Made by a program: the position numbers and the translations under genes
DNA from: an uncultured Lachnospiraceae bacterium
GTDB taxonomy: Bacteria > Bacillota > Clostridia > Lachnospirales > Lachnospiraceae
Direction: 5' to 3'
Assembly (NCBI GenBank): GCA_905236025.1
Contig: CAJOOB010000067.1
Span: forward strand, 1-40,494
Length of the DNA: 40,494 nt
The notes under the pieces: model-generated
Told to the model about the DNA's origin: nothing
What the model saw: the letters and a program-made list of their open reading frames with translations, nothing else
Database searches by the model: none
In this document: piece after piece, positions 14,101-28,249 of the stretch
Layout of the letters: every line of letters starts with the position of its first letter
Position numbering within the stretch: the first letter of the stretch is position 1

Positions 14101-15573
14101 ATGACGGAGAAAAAGTTAGACCAGCACAGAGCCCCTATTCATGAGGCCCTTGAAAATTTCAGACAGGCAAGAGTTGTGCCGTTTGATGTGCCCGGACATA
14201 AAAGAGGAAGAGGAAATCCGGAACTTGCACAGTTTTTGGGGCAGCAGTGCGTAAGCATTGATGTAAATAGTATGAAACCGTTAGATAATCTTTGCCACCC
14301 TATTTCAGTTATTGGGGAAGCGGAAGATTTGGCGGCAGCAGCCTTTGGTGCCGCACATGCATTTTTGATGGTTGGGGGGACCACGTCTGCGGTCCAGAGT
14401 ATGGTGCTTTCCGTTGTAAAGCGCGGAGAAAAAATCATCATGCCAAGAAACGTACACAGAAGTGTTATTAATGCACTTGTATTAAACGGCGCCATTCCTG
14501 TTTACGTAAATCCGGAAGTGGATAAGAGACTTGGTATTTCTCTTGGAATGAAGAGGGAACAGGTTGAACGTGCCATCAAGGAAAATCCTGATGCAAAGGC
14601 CGTACTTGTAAATAATCCCACATATTACGGAATATGTTCAGACCTTAAAGCGATTGTCAAAATGGCGCATGATGCAGGAATGTACTGCCTTGCGGATGAA
14701 GCACACGGTACTCACTTTTATTTTGGAAAGGGCTTACCTGTATCCGCAATGGAAGCAGGAGCTGATATGGCATCCGTATCCATGCATAAAAGCGGCGGTT
14801 CGCTTACTCAGTCAAGTTTTTTGCTTACCGGGCCAAACATACATCCGGGTTATGTAAGACAGATAATAAACCTTACACAGACAACCTCTGCAAGTTATCT
14901 TTTGATGTCAAGCCTTGATATAAGCAGAAGAAACCTTGCTTTAAACGGTAAAAACGTGTTTAAGAAGGTTGCCGATATGGCTGAATACGCAAGGGAGGAA
15001 ATAAACGAAATAGGCGGCTATTATGCCTTTGGAAAAGAGATGATTAACGGGGATTCAATCTTTGATTTTGACGTTACAAAGCTTAGTGTTCATACGCTTG
15101 ATATTGGACTTGCGGGAATTGAAGTATATGATATTTTAAGAGATGAATATGATATTCAGCTTGAATTCGGTGACTTTGGCAACTTCCTTGCATACCTTTC
15201 AATAGGTGACAGAGCGCAGGATTTGGAAAGACTCTGCAGCGCCCTTGCCGAAATAAAGCGTCGTTACTCAACAGACGGTGCCGGACTTTTAAGCCAGGAA
15301 TATGTTGACCCGGAAGTTGTTATTTCACCGCAGGAAGCCTTTTATGCAAGAAAGAAGAGCGTTCCGATAGAAGAATCCGAAGGTGAAATCTGTACGGAAT
15401 TTGTTATGTGTTACCCGCCGGGAATTCCAATTCTGGCTCCGGGAGAACGTATAACGGCAGAGATTTTGGAATATATCAGATACGCAAAAGAAAAGGGCTG
15501 TAGCATGACGGGCCCTGAAGATGCGGAAATAAACAATCTTAACGTCTTTGACGGACAATTACAAATGTATTAA
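14101..15573 (+). CDS. speA: arginine (Orn/Lys/Arg) decarboxylase, fold I
   Basis: A 490-residue PLP enzyme of the short, AAT-fold Orn/Lys/Arg decarboxylase group found in Firmicutes. Visible are the N-terminal DVPGHKRGRG substrate/PLP segment, the Asp199-Glu200-Ala-His202 motif (LADEAHGTH) and the PLP-binding Lys230 in SVSMHKSGGS; the C-terminal domain ends with PPGIPILAPGE. Lysine and arginine enzymes look alike; arginine is preferred because speB lies in the same operon, so product agmatine is used directly. AGGAG sits about 9 bases before the ATG. It is the last gene of the operon; no clear hairpin terminator follows before the structured region. Confidence 0.87.
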   Translation: MTEKKLDQHRAPIHEALENFRQARVVPFDVPGHKRGRGNPELAQFLGQQCVSIDVNSMKPLDNLCHPISVIGEAEDLAAAAFGAAHAFLMVGGTTSAVQSMVLSVVKRGEKIIMPRNVHRSVINALVLNGAIPVYVNPEVDKRLGISLGMKREQVERAIKENPDAKAVLVNNPTYYGICSDLKAIVKMAHDAGMYCLADEAHGTHFYFGKGLPVSAMEAGADMASVSMHKSGGSLTQSSFLLTGPNIHPGYVRQIINLTQTTSASYLLMSSLDISRRNLALNGKNVFKKVADMAEYAREEINEIGGYYAFGKEMINGDSIFDFDVTKLSVHTLDIGLAGIEVYDILRDEYDIQLEFGDFGNFLAYLSIGDRAQDLERLCSALAEIKRRYSTDGAGLLSQEYVDPEVVISPQEAFYARKKSVPIEESEGEICTEFVMCYPPGIPILAPGERITAEILEYIRYAKEKGCSMTGPEDAEINNLNVFDGQLQMY

Positions 15574-15615
15574 AAATTTCGTTAAGTTTTTTTAGTTATC
15601 TGTCGATATATTATA

Positions 15616-16189
15616 TATGCGTGATGTGTTTTAATATTTTATTTAAAATACGGGGATCACGTATGAAAAACGGTTAACACATACACATAAACGGTAAGAC
15701 AAACCAAGATCAAAGAAAGGATTTTTTGAGAGTTATGTCTTTGCGATTAAGGTAACGTGAAACCTTAATTACATCAAAGCATATGGATTGGTGCTTTATG
15801 ACATGATGATTGGAAAGTTTGGACTGTTTCTTTAATAGTTGTGGTTACTTAAAAGAAACTGATTGATGCTAAGGATTATCAGCGGTGAGAACAAAAGAGC
15901 TTAGTGACGGGCGACAATGACCAAAAAAAGGTGCCTGAAGTTTTTTTCTTTGTGCCGCAGGGCGAAGGCTTGTGTAGTGAGAGTCAGAGTATTCTAAACA
16001 TTGTAAAGAATTGACTTTTACCGGGTGCGAAAGATAAACCGAAATCATGGTACAGGCGTGGGCTGTGGAAACGCAGTTGTACAAATCGGATTGACGGTGA
16101 AAAAGTGTGGTTGCAGTTTGTAAGCTTTCTAGGGCGGGAGTTATGAAAATAACTGCAGATGGCTAAAGGACTGTAACTCTCCACTTTTT
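15616..16189 (+). ncRNA. candidate large structured noncoding RNA (ROOL-like class possible)
   Basis: This stretch has no plausible gene on either strand but is dense in pairing. Stems seen: 15616-15625 with 15656-15665, enclosing 15626-15634 with 15643-15651; 15739-15743 with 15775-15779, enclosing ATTAAGGT/ACCTTAAT (15746-15753, 15762-15769); the alternative 15772-15781 with 15792-15800; GTTTCTTT/AAAGAAAC (15826-15833, 15852-15859); 15982-15995 with 16007-16016; a three-part stem CCGA, GTACA, CTGTG closed by a GAAA tetraloop (16039-16089); a second GAAA hairpin AGTTAT/ATAACT (16139-16154); and AAAAAGTG (16100-16107) with CACTTTTT (16182-16189), ending in a T run. Size, complexity and a rumen-type host recall ROOL or GOLLD RNAs, but I cannot match a consensus from memory. 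The plus strand is inferred from the 3' T run and GNRA loops. Ends are approximate. Confidence 0.6.
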
Positions 16190-16265
16190 TGTGAGTGTAA
16201 GCAAAAATTTTTTTATTCCGGTATGTATTAAAATAAGTTTAGTGCATGCCAAAGAGGCTAATCAT

Positions 16266-17549
16266 ATGAATAAAGGTATGATGTATGAAAGACCGAAGAT
16301 AGGGAAAAAGAGGGGCACCGGTTTACTTGCGGTGCTTTTTCTTTTTACCCTGATACTTTCGGCCTGTGATTATGGAAATGTAATAAAAAAGTCCACTAAA
16401 AATATAATAAATGAGCGGACAACAATAAGCGATTCAGATGATGAAACATCAGATGAGTCTTTGTCGGTTACGGAAAAATCCGGAGAATCTGTGAGAGATG
16501 ACGGTGAAAGTACAGAAGAAGAAACAACAACGCAAAACGATGAAACGACGGTTTCTGAAACGGAAGAAGAAACAACAACGTCTTTGCCTGCCACAACCAC
16601 CACACAGTTAACTACAACAACGCAAACCACTACAACAACGCAGGCAACGACAACTGTTGCGCCTACAACAGTTGCGGCGGCAACAACAACTCACCAGTCG
16701 GGGGGTGGATTAAGCACAGAAGAAGAGACCACTCCTTACGGCCTTGATTCAAATGCCGCATTATCAGATTATTACGATAAATACGGTGTTCATTATGCCA
16801 TTATGTATGCATATAAAACAGGTGATATGAGTGTGTTGGATGCGGAAGATTTAGCTGTTTATAATGTTGTGGTACCTGCGGCATTATCGATTATGGCATC
16901 CACAACCTCAACTTTTTACAGGGAACTGGCTGCTCATGACTGGATTATTAAAAGATGTACGTATCTTTCAAATGAATATGATCAGACCGTATACGGAACC
17001 GTTGTTTTGGGTACGGCCGTATGTGAAGGGTATGCAAGAACATTTGAACTTTTTATGGATATATTCGGTATTGAAAATATAAGAGTGGACAGTTTGCCTG
17101 ATGATCACGCCTGGAATCTTGTTAAGCTTTCGGGAGAGTGGTATCTTGTTGACTGTACCTGGGATGACCCGGACGAAGGCGATACCATTTATTATTTTTA
17201 TTTTAATACAACGGATGCAGAGCACGGACATGTTTACACAACCTATAATTATGCATCAAACAGCAGAACTTATGCGTATTATGAATATGTCTGGGCGGGA
17301 AAATGCTTTTATGATGTTAGTGATTCAGCGGTTATGACATATTTAAATGCAGCTTATGCATCCGGTTTAACAGAAATTCCTTTTGTAATACACAGAACAT
17401 CCGGTGACGGCGTGAACTATTTTTATTATTCGGTATACGGAATGGAAATATTTAATTCCGCAACTTCGACAACTGTAAGCGGGGCAAGTATTGGGTATAC
17501 ATATAATGATTATTATGTTTTTGTAACCGTATATCCTACGTATCAATAG
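16266..17549 (+). CDS. surface lipoprotein with transglutaminase-like domain
   Basis: A 427-residue predicted lipoprotein. Residues 1-40 form a basic N-terminus, a hydrophobic core and the lipobox LSAC. Next come about 60 acidic Ser/Glu-rich residues and a Thr-rich linker with TTTTTQ-like repeats, typical of wall-spanning spacers. The C-terminal domain is transglutaminase-like: AVCEGYA (Cys near residue 253), DDHAWN (His near 281) and VDCTWDDP (Asp near 297) form a Cys-His-Asp triad. Such domains act as proteases, transglutaminases or binding domains on the cell surface. The start at 16266 follows AGAGG and gives a sensible signal peptide; an earlier in-frame start at 16191 would lie in the upstream T-rich stretch. 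It lies about 75 bases beyond the structured RNA. Confidence 0.78.
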   Translation: MNKGMMYERPKIGKKRGTGLLAVLFLFTLILSACDYGNVIKKSTKNIINERTTISDSDDETSDESLSVTEKSGESVRDDGESTEEETTTQNDETTVSETEEETTTSLPATTTTQLTTTTQTTTTTQATTTVAPTTVAAATTTHQSGGGLSTEEETTPYGLDSNAALSDYYDKYGVHYAIMYAYKTGDMSVLDAEDLAVYNVVVPAALSIMASTTSTFYRELAAHDWIIKRCTYLSNEYDQTVYGTVVLGTAVCEGYARTFELFMDIFGIENIRVDSLPDDHAWNLVKLSGEWYLVDCTWDDPDEGDTIYYFYFNTTDAEHGHVYTTYNYASNSRTYAYYEYVWAGKCFYDVSDSAVMTYLNAAYASGLTEIPFVIHRTSGDGVNYFYYSVYGMEIFNSATSTTVSGASIGYTYNDYYVFVTVYPTYQ

Positions 17550-18059: not shown

Positions 18060-19550
18060 ATGAAAAAAAGTTTGTGTTTTATTATATTATTCGCATTTAT
18101 TCTTATAGTTGGCGTTCTTGCATCCTCTGATGATGTATATGCAAGAGATTCAGAGGGAAATCTCGTTATTATTGTGGATCCGGGTCACGGAGATGACGAC
18201 CCCGGTGCTTTGGGTAACGGTGTTGAAGAAGAAGATTGTAACTGGACCATTGCGCTTAGCTTAAAAGCTCAGCTTGAGACATACGAAGGTGTTAAGGTTT
18301 ATTTAACAAGAGGTTCTTCTGAATGGTTTTCAAATACCGGAAGGGGAAGATTCGGTTATCTTTTGGGAGCGGATCTTTTTGTGTCCTGTCATATCAATTC
18401 TTCGACAGACACTTCGGTCTGCGGCGTTAACGTGTACAGCCAGGTAAATGCGGCGTTTAACGAAGAAGGATCAAAGCTTGCTGAAATGATTGCAGAAAAT
18501 GTTGCTTCTTTGGGCTTATATAATAACGGCGTAAGCAGTCGTGAATCGGATTATGATGCAGGAAGAGATTATTATACTGCGCTTGATGAGGCGGCAAGAG
18601 CGGGAATTATGGGCGTTATTATTGAACATGCCTTTGTTTCGAATACATCTGATGCAGAATTTTTATTCCTTACATCTAATCTTAAACAGCTTGGTGTTCA
18701 GGATGCGTTGGCAATTGCAGAGTATTACGGATTAACAAAAAGAACAGTTTCTGATGGCGATGAAATCACTCTTACAAGAACATATAGCGCAAAGTTTGTG
18801 GTTTCTGAAAGCGGAGGAACGTTTTCTTCTTCCAAAACCGCGTATGTATATGTAAGTGATGACGGTACAATTACCGCATGCAGAAAGGGAACTGCGGTTA
18901 TTACATATATTTCTCCAAGCGGAGATGAAGAAAGTGTTACGGTTATCGTGCCAGAGGTAACAATGGTCGGCATTGCCGCAGGTAACCTTAAAACATTTTA
19001 TTCAAGTTTAACGGCATATAATTCTTCTTATACGCTTGTAAAAGAAATCTCCAGTGACGGATCTGCATGTGCCGTCACGGATTATACGCTTGGAAGCGTA
19101 AGTGCAATCACGGATACATCGATTACGTCCGCTTCAAATGCGTACGGCGTTTTGGTTACAATGGGTGATTATTCCTGTACCATGGTTTTATATATTGATG
19201 CAAACTTAGACAGTGCGCAGGCTTCCACGTCTTTACTTACCTCTAACAGTAACTTAAATTCAGATATTTTAATGTATCCGGACGGAGAGGCAAGTTACGG
19301 TGAATCAGAAACCGAGACGGAAACACAGGAAGAAACGGAAACGGAAACCACGGCTATTGTCACGACTGAGGCAACAACAATTAATGCTAAAAAGGAAGAG
19401 GCAAAAAAAACGGAACTTCTTGAAAATATTGTGATTGGAATTATTTCTGTTTTTGTATTTCTTACAATTTTAGTTTTATTTAGAATGTATATGGTGAGCA
19501 AGAGAAGAAAGAGAAACAGAAGGCTTAAAAAAAGTAAATATATTGACTGA
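18060..19550 (+). CDS. membrane-anchored N-acetylmuramoyl-L-alanine amidase (Amidase_3), copy 1
   Basis: A 496-residue cell-wall amidase. A signal peptide (about residues 1-28, ending VYA) leads into an Amidase_3 domain (33-212) with zinc ligands His43, Glu57 and His111 and catalytic Glu189 (DPGHGD, SCHINSS, IIEHAFVSN). A BIG2-like Ig segment follows (ITLTRTYSAKF, GTAVITY), then a further beta-rich part, a Glu/Thr-rich linker and a C-terminal membrane helix (IVIGIISVFVFLTILVLF) with a basic tail. It cleaves the bond between MurNAc and the stem peptide while held at the membrane. The start at 18060 follows GAAGGAAG; an earlier in-frame ATG at 18000 lies in the previous gene. The amidase domain aligns without gaps to the next gene. 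Confidence 0.88.
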   Translation: MKKSLCFIILFAFILIVGVLASSDDVYARDSEGNLVIIVDPGHGDDDPGALGNGVEEEDCNWTIALSLKAQLETYEGVKVYLTRGSSEWFSNTGRGRFGYLLGADLFVSCHINSSTDTSVCGVNVYSQVNAAFNEEGSKLAEMIAENVASLGLYNNGVSSRESDYDAGRDYYTALDEAARAGIMGVIIEHAFVSNTSDAEFLFLTSNLKQLGVQDALAIAEYYGLTKRTVSDGDEITLTRTYSAKFVVSESGGTFSSSKTAYVYVSDDGTITACRKGTAVITYISPSGDEESVTVIVPEVTMVGIAAGNLKTFYSSLTAYNSSYTLVKEISSDGSACAVTDYTLGSVSAITDTSITSASNAYGVLVTMGDYSCTMVLYIDANLDSAQASTSLLTSNSNLNSDILMYPDGEASYGESETETETQEETETETTAIVTTEATTINAKKEEAKKTELLENIVIGIISVFVFLTILVLFRMYMVSKRRKRNRRLKKSKYID

Positions 19551-19556
19551 TGAAAA

Positions 19557-19585
19557 TTGAATAAAAGTATGCTGTATAGTATAAT
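19557..19585 (+). promoter_or_regulatory. sigma-A promoter of the second amidase
   Basis: TTGAAT (19557-19562), a 17-base spacer and perfect TATAAT (19580-19585), in the short gap between the two amidase genes. It lets copy 2 and the GH43-MATE-GH51 genes be expressed apart from copy 1. Confidence 0.83.
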
Positions 19586-19635
19586 TATCAATATGTTTTA
19601 TTTTTTGATAAAAACAGATGAAGGAAAAAAGGGAA

Positions 19636-21213
19636 ATGGTTAGAAAATTATATGGTTTTGCAATGATGCTTTTTTTAGCGGCATTTTGTGTTATTTTCTG
19701 CAATGATGAAGCGTTAGCAAGGGATTCTTCGGGAAATCTTGTCGTTATTGTAGATCCGGGTCACGGAGATGATGATCCGGGTGCTTCGGGTAACGGCGTT
19801 GTGGAAGAGGATTGTAACTGGGCAATCGCCCTTAGCTTAAAGGCTCAGCTTGAAACATACGAAGGCGTAAAGGTTTATTTGACAAGAGGTTCTGCTGAGT
19901 GGTTTTCAAATACCGGCAGAGCGAGACTCGGTTACCTTTTGGGTGCGGATCTTTTTATTTCCTGCCATATAAACAGTTCTTCAAGTTCAACTCCTTGCGG
20001 TGTTACGGTTTACGGTCAGGTAAATGCGACATATGCTGCAAATGGAAAAACTTTATCTAATATGATTGCAACAAATATTGCGTCTTTGGGGCTTGTTAAC
20101 AGAGGATATGCCACACGTTCTGCTTCTTCTGATTCATCAAGAGATTATTATACGGTTTTGGATGAATCTGCAAGAGCGGGAATTATGGGTATAATTATTG
20201 AACACGCCTTTGTTTCTAATGCTTCTGATGCTGCTTTTTTAAAGAGCAGAGCGAATCTTACAAATCTTGGTATTCAGGATGCTTTGGCAATTGCGCAGTA
20301 TTACGGATTAACAAAGAGAACCGTTTCTAACGGTGATGAAATTACTCTTACAAGGACGTACAGTGCGTATTTTGAACCTTCAACAACCGGCGGAACTTAT
20401 TCTTCGTCTGATTCGTCCGTTGCGTATGTATCTTCAAGCGGTACAATCACCGCATGCAGTCAGGGAACTGCCGTAATTACATATACGGATACTTCAGGGA
20501 ACACGGAAAGTGTTACAATTATGGTTCCTGCAGTCACACTGGTTGGTATTGCCGCAGGTAACACAAAGACCTTTTATGATAATGTTGTATCTGAATATAA
20601 TTCTTCAAATACCGTTGTAAAGGCAATTTACAGTGACGGCTCGGTTACACAGGTATCCGGGTGGAGTGGCAGCGCACTTAATGCAACAAGTGATACAAGT
20701 ACTACAACGGGTTACGGTGCATATTACAGCACCATTGAATATGGCGGTTTTTCGTGCAAACTTATTTTATATAATGATTCAACGCTTTCTTCGGTAAAGG
20801 CGGCTGCGTCGTCTCTTATAACACCAAATACCTCAAACACGGATATTTTGGTTTATCCAAACGGTAATACGGATTACACGGGCGAAGCTGCGACAACTGT
20901 AGCTGCAACCACAACGACACAGACTACAACAACCACCACACAGGCTGTTACAACAGCTGAAGAAGAAAACACAACAACTGAAGAAGAAACAACCACAACA
21001 GAGGAAGAAACGACTGAAGAAGAATCAACAGAAGAAACCTCTGAAACAACGGACGAAGAAACTAAAGAAACTCAGAGTGTTACATCCGTTAAAGAAGAGG
21101 ATGAATCGCTTTCTGCCGTGAAAGTGGTGGCTGTGGGCATCATTATTATTGTTGTTGCGGGTGGGGTAATATTTGGATTAAGAAAACCGGTTATGAAAAT
21201 GAAGAAGAAATAA
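19636..21213 (+). CDS. membrane-anchored N-acetylmuramoyl-L-alanine amidase (Amidase_3), copy 2
   Basis: A 525-residue tandem paralogue of the preceding gene, with the same plan: signal peptide, Amidase_3 domain, BIG2-like segment, linker and C-terminal membrane helix (VVAVGIIIIVVAGGVIFGL) plus basic tail. His43, Glu57, His111 and Glu189 occupy identical positions, which supports the start at 19636 (AAGGA upstream) over an in-frame ATG at 19618 that has no ribosome site. The linker is longer and more repetitive than in copy 1 (TTTTTQ and EEETTTTEEE blocks). Both copies keep all catalytic residues, so neither looks decayed. Its stop lies only 25 bases from the GH43 gene, suggesting shared transcription. 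Confidence 0.87.
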   Translation: MVRKLYGFAMMLFLAAFCVIFCNDEALARDSSGNLVVIVDPGHGDDDPGASGNGVVEEDCNWAIALSLKAQLETYEGVKVYLTRGSAEWFSNTGRARLGYLLGADLFISCHINSSSSSTPCGVTVYGQVNATYAANGKTLSNMIATNIASLGLVNRGYATRSASSDSSRDYYTVLDESARAGIMGIIIEHAFVSNASDAAFLKSRANLTNLGIQDALAIAQYYGLTKRTVSNGDEITLTRTYSAYFEPSTTGGTYSSSDSSVAYVSSSGTITACSQGTAVITYTDTSGNTESVTIMVPAVTLVGIAAGNTKTFYDNVVSEYNSSNTVVKAIYSDGSVTQVSGWSGSALNATSDTSTTTGYGAYYSTIEYGGFSCKLILYNDSTLSSVKAAASSLITPNTSNTDILVYPNGNTDYTGEAATTVAATTTTQTTTTTTQAVTTAEEENTTTEEETTTTEEETTEEESTEETSETTDEETKETQSVTSVKEEDESLSAVKVVAVGIIIIVVAGGVIFGLRKPVMKMKKK

Positions 21214-24206: not shown

Positions 24207-26650
24207 GCACAAAATTAGCCTTTGATCCTGCAGATACCCGCGAGAATTACGGGGATTTATTCGGTATATTCTTTGAGGATATTAATCATGCTGCCGATGG
24301 CGGCCTTTACGCTGAAATGATAAGAAACCGTTCCTTTGAATTTTGTGGGATTGATAACAGAAATTACAATAATCTCACAGCCTGGAAAAAGGTTGAGTTT
24401 GCCGGAAGATGTGAACTTGAAATAATGGATGAAGGGGCGTTTTGTGATAAAAACCCTCATTATTTAAGAATAAACGTAACAACACCCGGAAGTGACGTGG
24501 GTGTTTTAAATGAAGGCTTTAATTCAGGCCTTAACATTAAAAAAGATGCTGTATATAATTTTAGAATTTATGCAAGACGTAAACCGCACGGTGATATGGC
24601 ATTAAGGGTTGCGTTAAGAAGCGAGGCGGGAGACATTTATTCTTCGCAGGATTTTAATGTCACGGATACATGGCAAAAATACGAGATGGATATAATTTCT
24701 CCTGTTGATGATACAAATGCAAGGCTTTCCGTAACAGTGCTTGGTGAAGGTGAGGCGGATATTGACTTTGTTTCAGTTTTTCCTGCGGATACATATAAGG
24801 GAAGAAAGTACGGCTTAAGAAAGGATATTGCAGAGGCGCTTGAAGAACTTCACCCTGCGTTTATGCGTTTTCCGGGCGGATGCCTTGTACATGACGGTTC
24901 ATTAAATCCAAGTGACAGGGATTCAATGTATCGTTGGAAAAATACTTTGGGACCTGAGGAAGAAAGACCTGCAAGGCGCTCAAACTGGGGATATAATCAA
25001 ACTTTGGGACTTGGATATTATGAATATTTTTTGTTCTGTGAGGATATTAAGGCAAAGCCGCTTCCCGTAATACCGGGCGGATGTGATCCGCATCACAGAA
25101 GATATGAAGATATAAATAATCTTAAGCCTTGGATTGATGATGCGCTTGATTTGATTGAATTTGCTAACGGCGATGAAACCACAAAATGGGGACAGGTAAG
25201 AATAAATCTTGGACATAAGGAGCCTTTTAATCTTGAATATCTTGGCGTTGGAAATGAAGAAGTAAGTGCTCCTTTCTTTGAAAGAGAGCCATACTTTGTA
25301 AAAGCAATTAGAGAAAAGTATCCGGATATTAAACTTATTGGTACAAGCGGACCGTTTGCAAAAGGCGGCGAGTTTGACAGAGGCTTTGATGCGGCAGTAA
25401 GAGACGGCATGGATTTTGTGGATGAACATTATTACATGGCGCCTGAATGGTTTGTTGCAAATGCCTCAAGATACGCAGATAAAACAAGATATAAAGAGGG
25501 AAATCCAAAGGTTTTCCTTGGTGAATATGCAACATGGGGAAATGATTGGCTTAATGCCCTTACAGAAGCCGCTTACCTTGTTGAAGTAAAAAATAACGCA
25601 TCGGTTGTTGGGCTTTGTGCATATGCTCCTCTTTTATGTAATGATGCGTACCGTAACTGGGCACCTGACATGATTTGGTTTAATAATCATGATTTATATA
25701 AGACACCAAATTATTTTGTTCAAAAGCTATTTATGCACAATTGCGGTGATAATAGAATAAATGCGTCGCTTACATATGATTTAACACAAAGTGACTTTAA
25801 GGTGATGAGTGATGACTATGCATATGCAAATAAAGAGGCGTTGTTTGGAGGTCTCAGATTTGAGACCGTTGATTCGGATGTTGAGTATACAAATATCAGA
25901 ATAAAGGATAATGAAAACGGCTCGAGCGAGCTTTTGTCGGATATACATATTCGTAAGGGTGGCGAACCTGTATTTGGAAAGTATGATGAGGTTTTGGATA
26001 CCTTTATTCCGGTTGAATCTTCTGAATATGAAATTGAATTTGATGCTGTAATGAATGAAGGTAACAGAGGCTTTATTTTAAGATTCGGCTATCTTGACGA
26101 AAATAACTTTATTACCTGGGAAGTTGGCGGATGGCAAAATCTTGATAACGTTATTGATAAAAGAATTAACGGAAGAGGTGCCTGCCTTGAACAATTTGAA
26201 TTCAGTGTTGAAAAGGGAAGAACTTATCACATGCTCTTAAAGGTTAATAAAAGGAGGATACAGGCATATATTGACGGGGTTTTATATCAGGATGTATATG
26301 ATAAAGTGCCTTACATTAAACCTGTGTATGTTAACGTTTCAAAAGATGATACGGATATAATTATTAAATATGTAAATCTTTTGTATGAGAGCGAAAAGGT
26401 TATGGTTGATTTACTTAACACTCCTTTTGCAAACGAAGAAACGGGCAGAGACGCAAATTGCATGGCGGTAAGTGAAATAACAGAGCTTTCCGGATTTGAT
26501 GATAAAGCAACAAACAATTATGAAAATAAAGATTGCGTAAAACCAAAAGAATATACCATAAACACACCGCTTCCTTCGTTTGATATAATGATTCCAAAAA
26601 GAAGTTTTGTTATACAAAGAATAAAAAATTATTGTAAACCGGTTGAATAA
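24203..26650 (+). CDS. GH51 alpha-L-arabinofuranosidase
   Basis: An 815-residue retaining arabinofuranosidase. It opens with the family motif LFGIFFEDINHAADGGLYAE, has an N-terminal carbohydrate-binding-like sandwich (about 60-195), and a TIM barrel with FMRFPGGC (221-227), acid/base Glu352 in YLGVGNEE and nucleophile Glu441 in FLGEYATWG. After the usual catalytic part there is an extra beta-sandwich of about 200 residues (ESSEYEIEFDAVMNEG, RGFILRFGYLDENNFITWE) that resembles a laminin/concanavalin-type insert. There is no signal peptide, so it acts in the cytoplasm, removing arabinose from arabinoxylan or arabinan fragments together with GH43. AGGAGG within the MATE end drives it. No terminator was seen after it. 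Confidence 0.9.
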   Translation: MSTKLAFDPADTRENYGDLFGIFFEDINHAADGGLYAEMIRNRSFEFCGIDNRNYNNLTAWKKVEFAGRCELEIMDEGAFCDKNPHYLRINVTTPGSDVGVLNEGFNSGLNIKKDAVYNFRIYARRKPHGDMALRVALRSEAGDIYSSQDFNVTDTWQKYEMDIISPVDDTNARLSVTVLGEGEADIDFVSVFPADTYKGRKYGLRKDIAEALEELHPAFMRFPGGCLVHDGSLNPSDRDSMYRWKNTLGPEEERPARRSNWGYNQTLGLGYYEYFLFCEDIKAKPLPVIPGGCDPHHRRYEDINNLKPWIDDALDLIEFANGDETTKWGQVRINLGHKEPFNLEYLGVGNEEVSAPFFEREPYFVKAIREKYPDIKLIGTSGPFAKGGEFDRGFDAAVRDGMDFVDEHYYMAPEWFVANASRYADKTRYKEGNPKVFLGEYATWGNDWLNALTEAAYLVEVKNNASVVGLCAYAPLLCNDAYRNWAPDMIWFNNHDLYKTPNYFVQKLFMHNCGDNRINASLTYDLTQSDFKVMSDDYAYANKEALFGGLRFETVDSDVEYTNIRIKDNENGSSELLSDIHIRKGGEPVFGKYDEVLDTFIPVESSEYEIEFDAVMNEGNRGFILRFGYLDENNFITWEVGGWQNLDNVIDKRINGRGACLEQFEFSVEKGRTYHMLLKVNKRRIQAYIDGVLYQDVYDKVPYIKPVYVNVSKDDTDIIIKYVNLLYESEKVMVDLLNTPFANEETGRDANCMAVSEITELSGFDDKATNNYENKDCVKPKEYTINTPLPSFDIMIPKRSFVIQRIKNYCKPVE

Positions 26651-26670
26651 GAGCATAAATATTCCGATAA
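26644..26670 (+). promoter_or_regulatory. possible sigma-28 (SigD) promoter of the FliD-like gene
   Basis: TCCGATAA (26663-26670) resembles GCCGATAA, with TGAA (26644-26647) 15 bases upstream in place of TAAA. It overlaps the GH51 stop. It is the same -10 word seen before mbl; a stronger sigma-A promoter lies just downstream. Confidence 0.3.
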
Positions 26671-26795: not shown

Positions 26796-27551
26796 ATGTC
26801 TGCATATTATGGGATTACATCAAGCGGTGTATCAACGCTTTTTTCGTCGCTTAGTACAAGCAGGACTACAATGACGAATTCCTTTGACAGTATGTATGGT
26901 TTAACTTCATCTACACTTGATACGAGTTATCTTGGAACATATGCAAGTATAAGAAACGGAAGTTACGCAACGCTTGTCAAAGCTTATTATGAAAAAAATG
27001 AAGATGCGGATGCAAATGTAACAACGACGTCCACATCAACCGACACCGTAAAAGAATTAAAACTTGTTGAATCATCGGCTGAGGATTTAAAATCAGTAGC
27101 TGATGAATTATATTCATCGGGAAGTACACTGTTTGCAACCGATGATGACGGTGAATATGATACAGATGCAATTTATGAAAAGGTAAGCGAATTTGTTGAT
27201 TCATACAATTCTCTTATTTCGGATTCGAAGAATATAAATTCATCAACAATTGCATCGGCTGTATCAAATCTCCAAAATGCAACCGAAAATTATGAAGTGC
27301 TTTTAAAGAAAGCCGGTATTACGATTAACAGTGACGGCAAGCTTTCAATCGATGAAGATACATTTAAACAGGCCAATATGTCAACAGTAAAGACAATATT
27401 CAGCGGAACAAATTCGCTTGCATACCAGACATCTGCATATGCTGCAACGGTTGATTATTATTCGGCATACGAAGCAACAAAATCGAATACTTATACATCA
27501 AGCGGAGCATATTCATATAACTACGCAAGCACATATACATCATACATTTAA
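26796..27551 (+). CDS. stand-alone FliD C-terminal-like protein
   Basis: A 251-residue protein rich in Ser, Thr and Tyr, with no Cys, no signal peptide and no membrane segment, as in flagellar secreted proteins. Residues about 80-220 contain FVDSYNSLISD and then KKAGITINSDGKLSIDEDTF followed by IFSG, which resemble the C-terminal region of the flagellar cap FliD. The FliD N-terminal and hypervariable regions are missing, and the last 35 residues are Tyr/Ser/Thr repeats. It may be a flagellar or adhesin-like secreted helper rather than the cap. The start at 26796 follows AAAAAGGAG; an in-frame ATG at 26733 is in the leader. It is a single-gene unit with its own promoter and strong terminator. 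Confidence 0.7.
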   Translation: MSAYYGITSSGVSTLFSSLSTSRTTMTNSFDSMYGLTSSTLDTSYLGTYASIRNGSYATLVKAYYEKNEDADANVTTTSTSTDTVKELKLVESSAEDLKSVADELYSSGSTLFATDDDGEYDTDAIYEKVSEFVDSYNSLISDSKNINSSTIASAVSNLQNATENYEVLLKKAGITINSDGKLSIDEDTFKQANMSTVKTIFSGTNSLAYQTSAYAATVDYYSAYEATKSNTYTSSGAYSYNYASTYTSYI

Positions 27552-27613: not shown

Positions 27614-27710
27614 GTACATTAAAGAAAAACTATAATTTTTTGAAAAAGAACTTTAATTTTGGAAATTATCAACTTAATTTTTAGAAATTGAAAAAATGAA
27701 TTTAAAAAAC

Positions 27711-27739
27711 TTGCCATTAAGGACAATATGTGGTAGAAT
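27711..27739 (+). promoter_or_regulatory. sigma-A promoter for the long leader or noncoding transcript
   Basis: TTGCCA (27711-27716), a 17-base spacer and TAGAAT (27734-27739). No gene starts within 500 bases downstream, so the transcript is either a long leader or noncoding. Confidence 0.6.
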
Positions 27740-28055
27740 ATCAGAGAATAAAAGTCAAAATATTGCGTTTTGGCTTTATAGTTATGACATTTGAAATTTA
27801 TAGTTTTTAGGGAGAACCCACGTATTTTGGCGTTTTTTAAAGGCTGTGACAAGGCAAAAATAATCGTTATGGTAAACCACTCTTTTGGTGGTAGTCCTTA
27901 AAAATAAAGATTATAAAAAGTCAAAAATCAGCATTTTGATTTGTAACAAATTTATAGGTGCAGATTTTTGGATTTTGGAATGATATTTTCGTGGGCATTT
28001 TGTGGAAAGTATTTAAAATTCCAATTGCAGAAAAATATCTGACAATTGTTGTTAA

Positions 28056-28083
28056 TTGACATAATAAAACTGAATTGTATATA
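28056..28083 (+). promoter_or_regulatory. sigma-A promoter of the transporter-hflX unit
   Basis: A perfect -35 TTGACA (28056-28061), then TATATA (28078-28083) at 16 bases or TATACA (28080-28085) at 18. The -10 lies inside a perfect palindrome, which suggests repressor control. Confidence 0.58.
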
Positions 28084-28088
28084 CAATT
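28073..28088. promoter_or_regulatory. palindromic operator overlapping the -10 box
   Basis: AATTGTATATACAATT is a perfect 16-base palindrome covering the -10 region of the 28056 promoter. This is the usual size and position for a dimeric repressor such as a MarR, GntR or TetR family protein; no regulator gene is adjacent. Confidence 0.55.
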
Positions 28089-28156
28089 ATGACATTTCCA
28101 TTTATAAAATATTGGAAATGAATTTTTTTATTCATGAAAAATTTCTTTGAATTACG

Positions 28157-28226
28157 TGGAGGCGAAAATTACAATATTTACAATAAATAAAATTATTGTA
28201 AACTACTTCGCCCCATGATTTTTTTT
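28157..28226 (+). terminator. terminator-like attenuator in the transporter leader
   Basis: TGG-A-GGCGAA (28157-28166, one bulged A) pairs with TTCGCCCCA (28207-28215); inside, TTTACAATA (28177-28185) pairs with TATTGTAAA (28194-28202). Eight T residues follow (28219-28226). A repeat of TTACAATA at 28169-28176 offers an alternative partner for the inner right arm. It ends 13 bases before the GAGGG of the next gene, so read-through must be controlled or partial. Confidence 0.75.
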
Positions 28227-28249
28227 ATGTTAACGTAGAGGGAAACGGT

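Follow-up and report, generated by a model that had tools for sequence, protein, structure and literature searches.

Bacteria have few large noncoding RNAs, mostly of unknown role. One of them, ROOL, has a background in rumen Firmicutes. Long, genus-restricted RNA candidates can slip past Rfam and past pipelines based on sequence similarity, and a link to the flagellar regulon would bring a testable physiological setting (motility), which is absent for ROOL, GOLLD and others. In Bdellovibrio, FliA-dependent and attack-phase small RNAs have been described; FliA promoters have the form TTAAG-N16-CCGATA, and merRNA was proposed to store c-di-GMP (PMC3627812). For C. difficile a SigD-type promoter of the form aTAAAtattttttttatttatCCGATAAt was reported (PMC3865298), and a few promoters of this type were predicted for noncoding RNAs. 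The published sigma-28 consensus is generally TAAA-N15-CCGATAT; for Butyrivibrio it reads TAAA-N16/17-MCGATAa (PMC3720852).

The locus studied here lies in a stretch of 40,494 nucleotides (the window) from an uncultured Lachnospiraceae bacterium. For the host, a flagellated bacterium, there is a draft genome of 85% completeness, the single representative of its genus. An initial annotation had proposed that the gap between speA and a lipoprotein gene is free of genes, rich in stem-loops and a candidate for a large noncoding RNA.

The gap and its predicted fold

About 690 bases separate the speA stop codon (15573) from the lipoprotein gene, and no credible gene lies in them (15574-16190 included); this is one of just three gaps of at least 250 bases in the 40 kb window. 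No plus-strand open reading frame of at least 60 amino acids was found between the two genes. The minus-strand frames measured 66-71 amino acids (84-97 from stop to stop), and neither these 66-71 residue frames nor the main plus-strand frames of at least 24 amino acids had a Pfam match at E ≤ 1. The ORF listing and the Pfam search on the frames tested thus bear out that the gap carries no credible gene. With no Pfam match among these frames, a pseudogene was rejected as a reading.

The first plausible start codon of the lipoprotein gene is the ATG at 16266, on the same strand as the candidate RNA and 76 nt past its 3' end, with the Shine-Dalgarno sequence AAAGAGG at 16251-16257. The genes downstream of the gap encode cell-surface proteins, one with a Transglut_core domain and then two with Amidase_3 domains. 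The tandem Amidase_3 pair (18060-21213) shares about 62% protein identity between its members, and comparable pairs occur, without the RNA, in the nearest genera. SpeA (14101-15573) is about 80-84% identical to proteins of Faecalibacterium, Blautia and Oscillospiraceae, which are very different Clostridia. In those foreign loci an ORF of about 285 amino acids usually follows speA directly; in the present window, by contrast, speE is found upstream and the unit ends with speA. The identity to distant Clostridia together with the differing gene order suggests that speA may have undergone horizontal transfer and rearrangement.

The minimum free energy of the plus strand between 15616 and 16206 was -167.4 kcal/mol, compared to a mean of -136.1 (sd 6.1) for dinucleotide shuffles (z -5.1), and none of 100 shuffles reached the native value. 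Such an energy, beyond that of dinucleotide shuffles, is what the general test for a large structured noncoding RNA looks for. The two strands differed strongly (-166.9 for the plus and -109.6 for the minus strand). When the window was cut into 68 equal tiles, the 591-nt region ranked first, with an energy excess of -25.9 (tile mean -7.4, sd 7.4), only about 2.5 sd from the mean. Because a tile of repeat-rich coding sequence (16207-16797) came close with an excess of -25.0, the folding excess of the region is clear but not unique in the window.

From its 5' end, the predicted fold comprises a hairpin, a series of arms (15694-16021), a stem capped by GAAA (16039-16089) and, last, the 3' domain (16099-16190). 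Mean pair probability was at least 0.9 in about half of the helices and 0.6-0.9 in the remainder. All pairings named in the initial annotation (the stem 15616-15665, the GAAA hairpins, the three-part stem and the closing pair) do exist; the elements of the predicted fold are listed below together with the flanking features.

Coordinates of the predicted RNA elements and flanking features in the window
Feature	Position	Strand	Description
Putative sigma-28 (FliA/SigD) promoter	15583-15609	+	TAAG-N15-GTCGATAT; TAAG 15583-15586, GTCGATAT 15602-15609
5' hairpin	15616-15665	+	10 bp + 9 bp, GGGG bulge; mean pair probability 0.89-0.99
Long-range closing helix, 5' strand	15673-15684	+	pairs with 16191-16202, 10 bp, P 0.80
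Helix 15694-15704/15732-15744	15694-15744	+	inner hairpin 15710-15729, AGGA loop
Hairpin	15745-15770	+	9 bp, predicted fold
Hairpin	15772-15800	+	10 bp, GGA in loop
Long irregular hairpin	15804-15881	+	15804-15811/15874-15881 and 15816-15833/15852-15870
Strongest arm	15882-15958	+	18 bp and CGGGC/GCCUG 5 bp, mean P 0.96-1.00
Hairpin	15977-16021	+	15977-15986/16012-16021 and 15991-15995/16007-16011
Three-part stem	16039-16089	+	CCGA/UCGG, GUACA/UGUAC, CUGUG-GAAA-CGCAG; inner hairpin P 0.95
3' domain	16099-16190	+	closing helix 16099-16107/16182-16190, 3' arm ending in U6
Hairpin	16220-16250	+	13 bp, directly before Shine-Dalgarno of lipoprotein gene
Lipoprotein gene	16266-17549	+	LSAC lipobox, Transglut_core domain; candidate cis target

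The two GAAA hairpins are located at 16063-16076 and 16139-16154. The first lies within the three-part stem, which is partly rivalled in the ensemble, where 16085-16088 favours pairing with 16095-16098 (P about 0.7). The second sits inside the 3' domain, together with an 11-bp helix (16109-16119/16168-16178). With its A-tract, stem and U-tract, the 3' domain is predicted to form a terminator-like end that differs from a canonical terminator. A canonical terminator was found neither at 16190 nor before the lipoprotein gene, so the transcript may run on into the lipoprotein mRNA. The long-range helix could close the whole body of the RNA, and its formation would need transcription beyond 16190. 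In the predicted fold the Shine-Dalgarno sequence of the lipoprotein gene is largely unpaired and not sequestered.

At the base of the 5' hairpin, GGGG is followed by a four-codon frame (ATG AAA AAC GGT TAA, 15663-15677); this frame possibly encodes a leader peptide or occurs by chance. In one foreign locus (L155) a similar element, GGGGA-N-CACGTATGAAAAA, stands at the start of an apparent gene.

A putative sigma-28 promoter

A possible AT-rich -10 element had been noted just before the 5' stem. A promoter element does appear to be present at this place, but it is better read as part of a sigma-28 promoter, with the half-sites TAAG and GTCGATAT separated by N15, as in promoters of the TAAA-N15-CCGATAT type and at the right distance from the RNA. 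Transcription is predicted to start at about 15616, seven bases beyond the -10 box, which is also where the 5' stem begins. When the host genome was scanned with TAAN-N15-GYCGATAT, eight matches were obtained, compared to one for the reversed control. One of the eight, TAAA-N15-GCCGATATTATATATG, with a tail near-identical to GTCGATAT, is located 43 nt before a fliK-like gene (identified by its sequence, not by a profile search). With a looser score (11 of 12) there were four sites in the 40-kb window against one in the control. A chance match is thus unlikely, if conceivable.

In a foreign genome, a blastn match (L003) was identical at 33 of 39 positions over the promoter, 78 nt before a gene which, as named from its sequence, encodes a methyl-accepting chemotaxis protein. 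As a match to the stretch it is apparently fortuitous, the promoter being what the two loci seem to share. The host encodes FliA (TIGR02479, 263 bits; curated cut-off 189.6) and flagella, and the window itself contains rod genes (FlgEFG-type) and a FliD_C gene. A second sigma-28-like site, TGAA-N15-TCCGATAA, was noticed at 26644-26670, before the FliD_C-domain gene (26796-27551). We regard the sigma-28 promoter at 15583-15609 as supported by computation, with 15616 as the probable start site. With this promoter, a structured gap that would otherwise be anonymous becomes a candidate member of the motility regulon that can be tested.

Search for relatives and known families

The initial annotation had suggested collecting homologues by nucleotide search in Lachnospiraceae. 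None came to light: blastn detected no homologue in 61 relatives, in 397 genomes of the family (334 genera) or 363 of the order (about 690 Lachnospiraceae and same-order genomes in all), or in phages or plasmids. The scattered matches of 20-50 bases that it yielded appear to be due to chance, to the shared promoter (L003) or to resemblance to a ribosome-binding site (L155). A single-sequence covariance model of the 3' domain (R1), run over 397 and then 12 genomes, recovered the window itself only, the remaining weak matches having E values of at least 0.09. Five exact patterns searched in viral contigs gave nothing beyond two isolated 17-mers. No counterpart was seen in 80 speA loci, where the next ORF begins about 0-270 nt after speA, and no comparable gap near the related amidases of the nearest genera. 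This leaves the RNA an orphan, represented by one sequence.

The window's other long gap contained no paralogue. A second extended stretch that is AT-rich and carries no gene is present at 27620-28230, directly behind a canonical terminator. Its plus strand folds strongly (z -4.7 to -7.9), with a long stem near the 3' end (GGAGGCGAA...TTCGCCCC); no Rfam family matched it above gathering, and a DNA relative was absent from 358 Lachnospiraceae genomes.

None of the 4227 Rfam families matched the window at gathering scores. Permissive filters (E ≤ 10) applied to a 1-kb stretch returned no ROOL, GOLLD, OLE, HEARO or raiA, just small unrelated chance families (E 0.6-5.9). The gathering score of ROOL (RF03087, 99.1 bits) was not reached in the window or in the host genome, and the control genomes were likewise devoid of ROOL. 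Covariance models and an ARAGORN scan for tRNA and tmRNA detected no group I or group II intron, RNase P or tmRNA, and neither the c-di-GMP riboswitch nor any other known riboswitch was matched in Rfam. Membership in the known large-RNA families, which the initial annotation had considered, was rejected on these grounds, whereas its proposal of a large noncoding RNA in a structured, gene-free stretch stands as the best reading.

Interpretation and comparison with known systems

Our tentative preference is for a large structured noncoding RNA that stands alone, measures about 575 nt (15616 to about 16190) and forms part of the motility regulon in a flagellated bacterium of the Lachnospiraceae. 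Counted in its favour were the lack of a gene on either strand, the z of -5.1, the strand asymmetry, the promoter joined to the 5' stem, the ratio of eight matches to one in the genome, the promoter match at the chemotaxis gene, FliA, the flagellar genes and the small RNA precedents. Counted against it were the single sequence, the missing canonical terminator at 16190 and the looser promoter score of four against one. FliA/SigD-RNA polymerase would start at 15616 from the sigma-28 promoter, the transcript would fold into the 5' hairpin and then the multi-arm body, and it would end at the A-tract/stem/U-tract domain. Such an RNA would be made in swimming cells and, by analogy to the role proposed for merRNA, would most likely act in trans as a stable RNA binding a ligand or a protein. 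The further step would be a new class: large multi-domain noncoding RNAs of gut and rumen Lachnospiraceae that are controlled by the flagellar sigma factor, have no relative among the described large bacterial RNAs, and work in trans in swimming cells, either as a sink for a ligand or protein or as a scaffold for an RNP. This is conceivable but unlikely; with a single sequence and no homologue, a new class is unproven and cannot be claimed.

Alternatively, the transglutaminase-like lipoprotein gene at 16266 could have a long structured 5' leader of about 650 nt, which would be made from the same sigma-28 promoter and regulate this surface gene in cis through ligand sensing or mRNA protection. 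This is possible, if on balance rather unlikely. Nothing coding intervenes between promoter and gene, which lie on the same strand, no canonical terminator was found before the gene, and the long-range helix and the 13-bp hairpin extend the structure to the Shine-Dalgarno sequence; the cell-surface genes downstream (Transglut_core, two Amidase_3) would moreover fit the control of autolysins by SigD in B. subtilis (PMC3865298). The free RNA is nevertheless favoured because sigma-28 flagellin promoters of related species are 47-375 bp from the start codon (PMC3720852), a distance exceeded by the 650 nt here, because the fold terminates in the A-tract/stem/U-tract element (16099-16190), and because most of the Shine-Dalgarno sequence is unpaired in the predicted fold. 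The amidase neighbourhoods lacking a comparable gap also speak against a leader.

A further reading is that the stretch behind the spe genes is a spacer without function, or sequence that decayed long ago, and that its apparent structure simply follows from composition and short inverted repeats. This reading would agree with the lack of conservation at the blastn level, with the energy excess approached by other tiles, and with the match of the 5' arm to L155, which looks like a normal ribosome-binding site with its start codon (GGGGA-N-CACGTATGAAAAA). It is improbable in view of the z of -5.1 against dinucleotide shuffles, the high pair probabilities of most helices, the precise junction of promoter and 5' stem, and the absence of any protein trace in the frames tested. 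GGA in hairpin loops binds CsrA, and GGA occurs in the apical loops 15718-15721 and 15783-15790, while csrA was present in the flagellar loci of all Eubacterium and Roseburia genomes examined (PMC3720852). A CsrA-sequestering RNA of the motility network is nonetheless most improbable: there are 10 GGA against 11.1 ± 2.6 in shuffles (6.3 against 5.3 ± 1.3 when weighted by unpaired state). Without enrichment of GGA over shuffles, membership in the CsrB-type sponges was rejected. Equally remote is the possibility that the RNA belongs, as a strongly diverged member, to a known large family (ROOL, GOLLD, OLE, group II intron or similar); length, A+G-rich loops and GNRA tetraloops would suit this, but the Rfam results have already largely refuted it.

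The stand-alone RNA resembles ROOL, OLE and GOLLD in size and style alone. ROOL is of similar length (a model of 574 positions) and multi-branched, but its covariance model matched neither window nor host genome; OLE (RF01071) and GOLLD (RF01998) are large ornate RNAs of roughly 600-800 nt, but without an Rfam match here and with unlike neighbouring genes and promoter type. With long structured leaders and riboswitches the candidate shares a same-strand gene 76 nt past its 3' end; it differs in matching no known riboswitch and in leaving the Shine-Dalgarno sequence free in the predicted fold. merRNA of Bdellovibrio (445 nt) carries a c-di-GMP riboswitch and is massively expressed, whereas in the present candidate Rfam matched no such riboswitch; a similarity is that merRNA has no conserved downstream ORF (PMC3627812). 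Likeness extends to the attack-phase RNAs of Bdellovibrio, which are long, lineage-restricted and linked to the motile phase, some of them, such as APsRNA6 (655 nt), having FliA promoters (PMC3627812).
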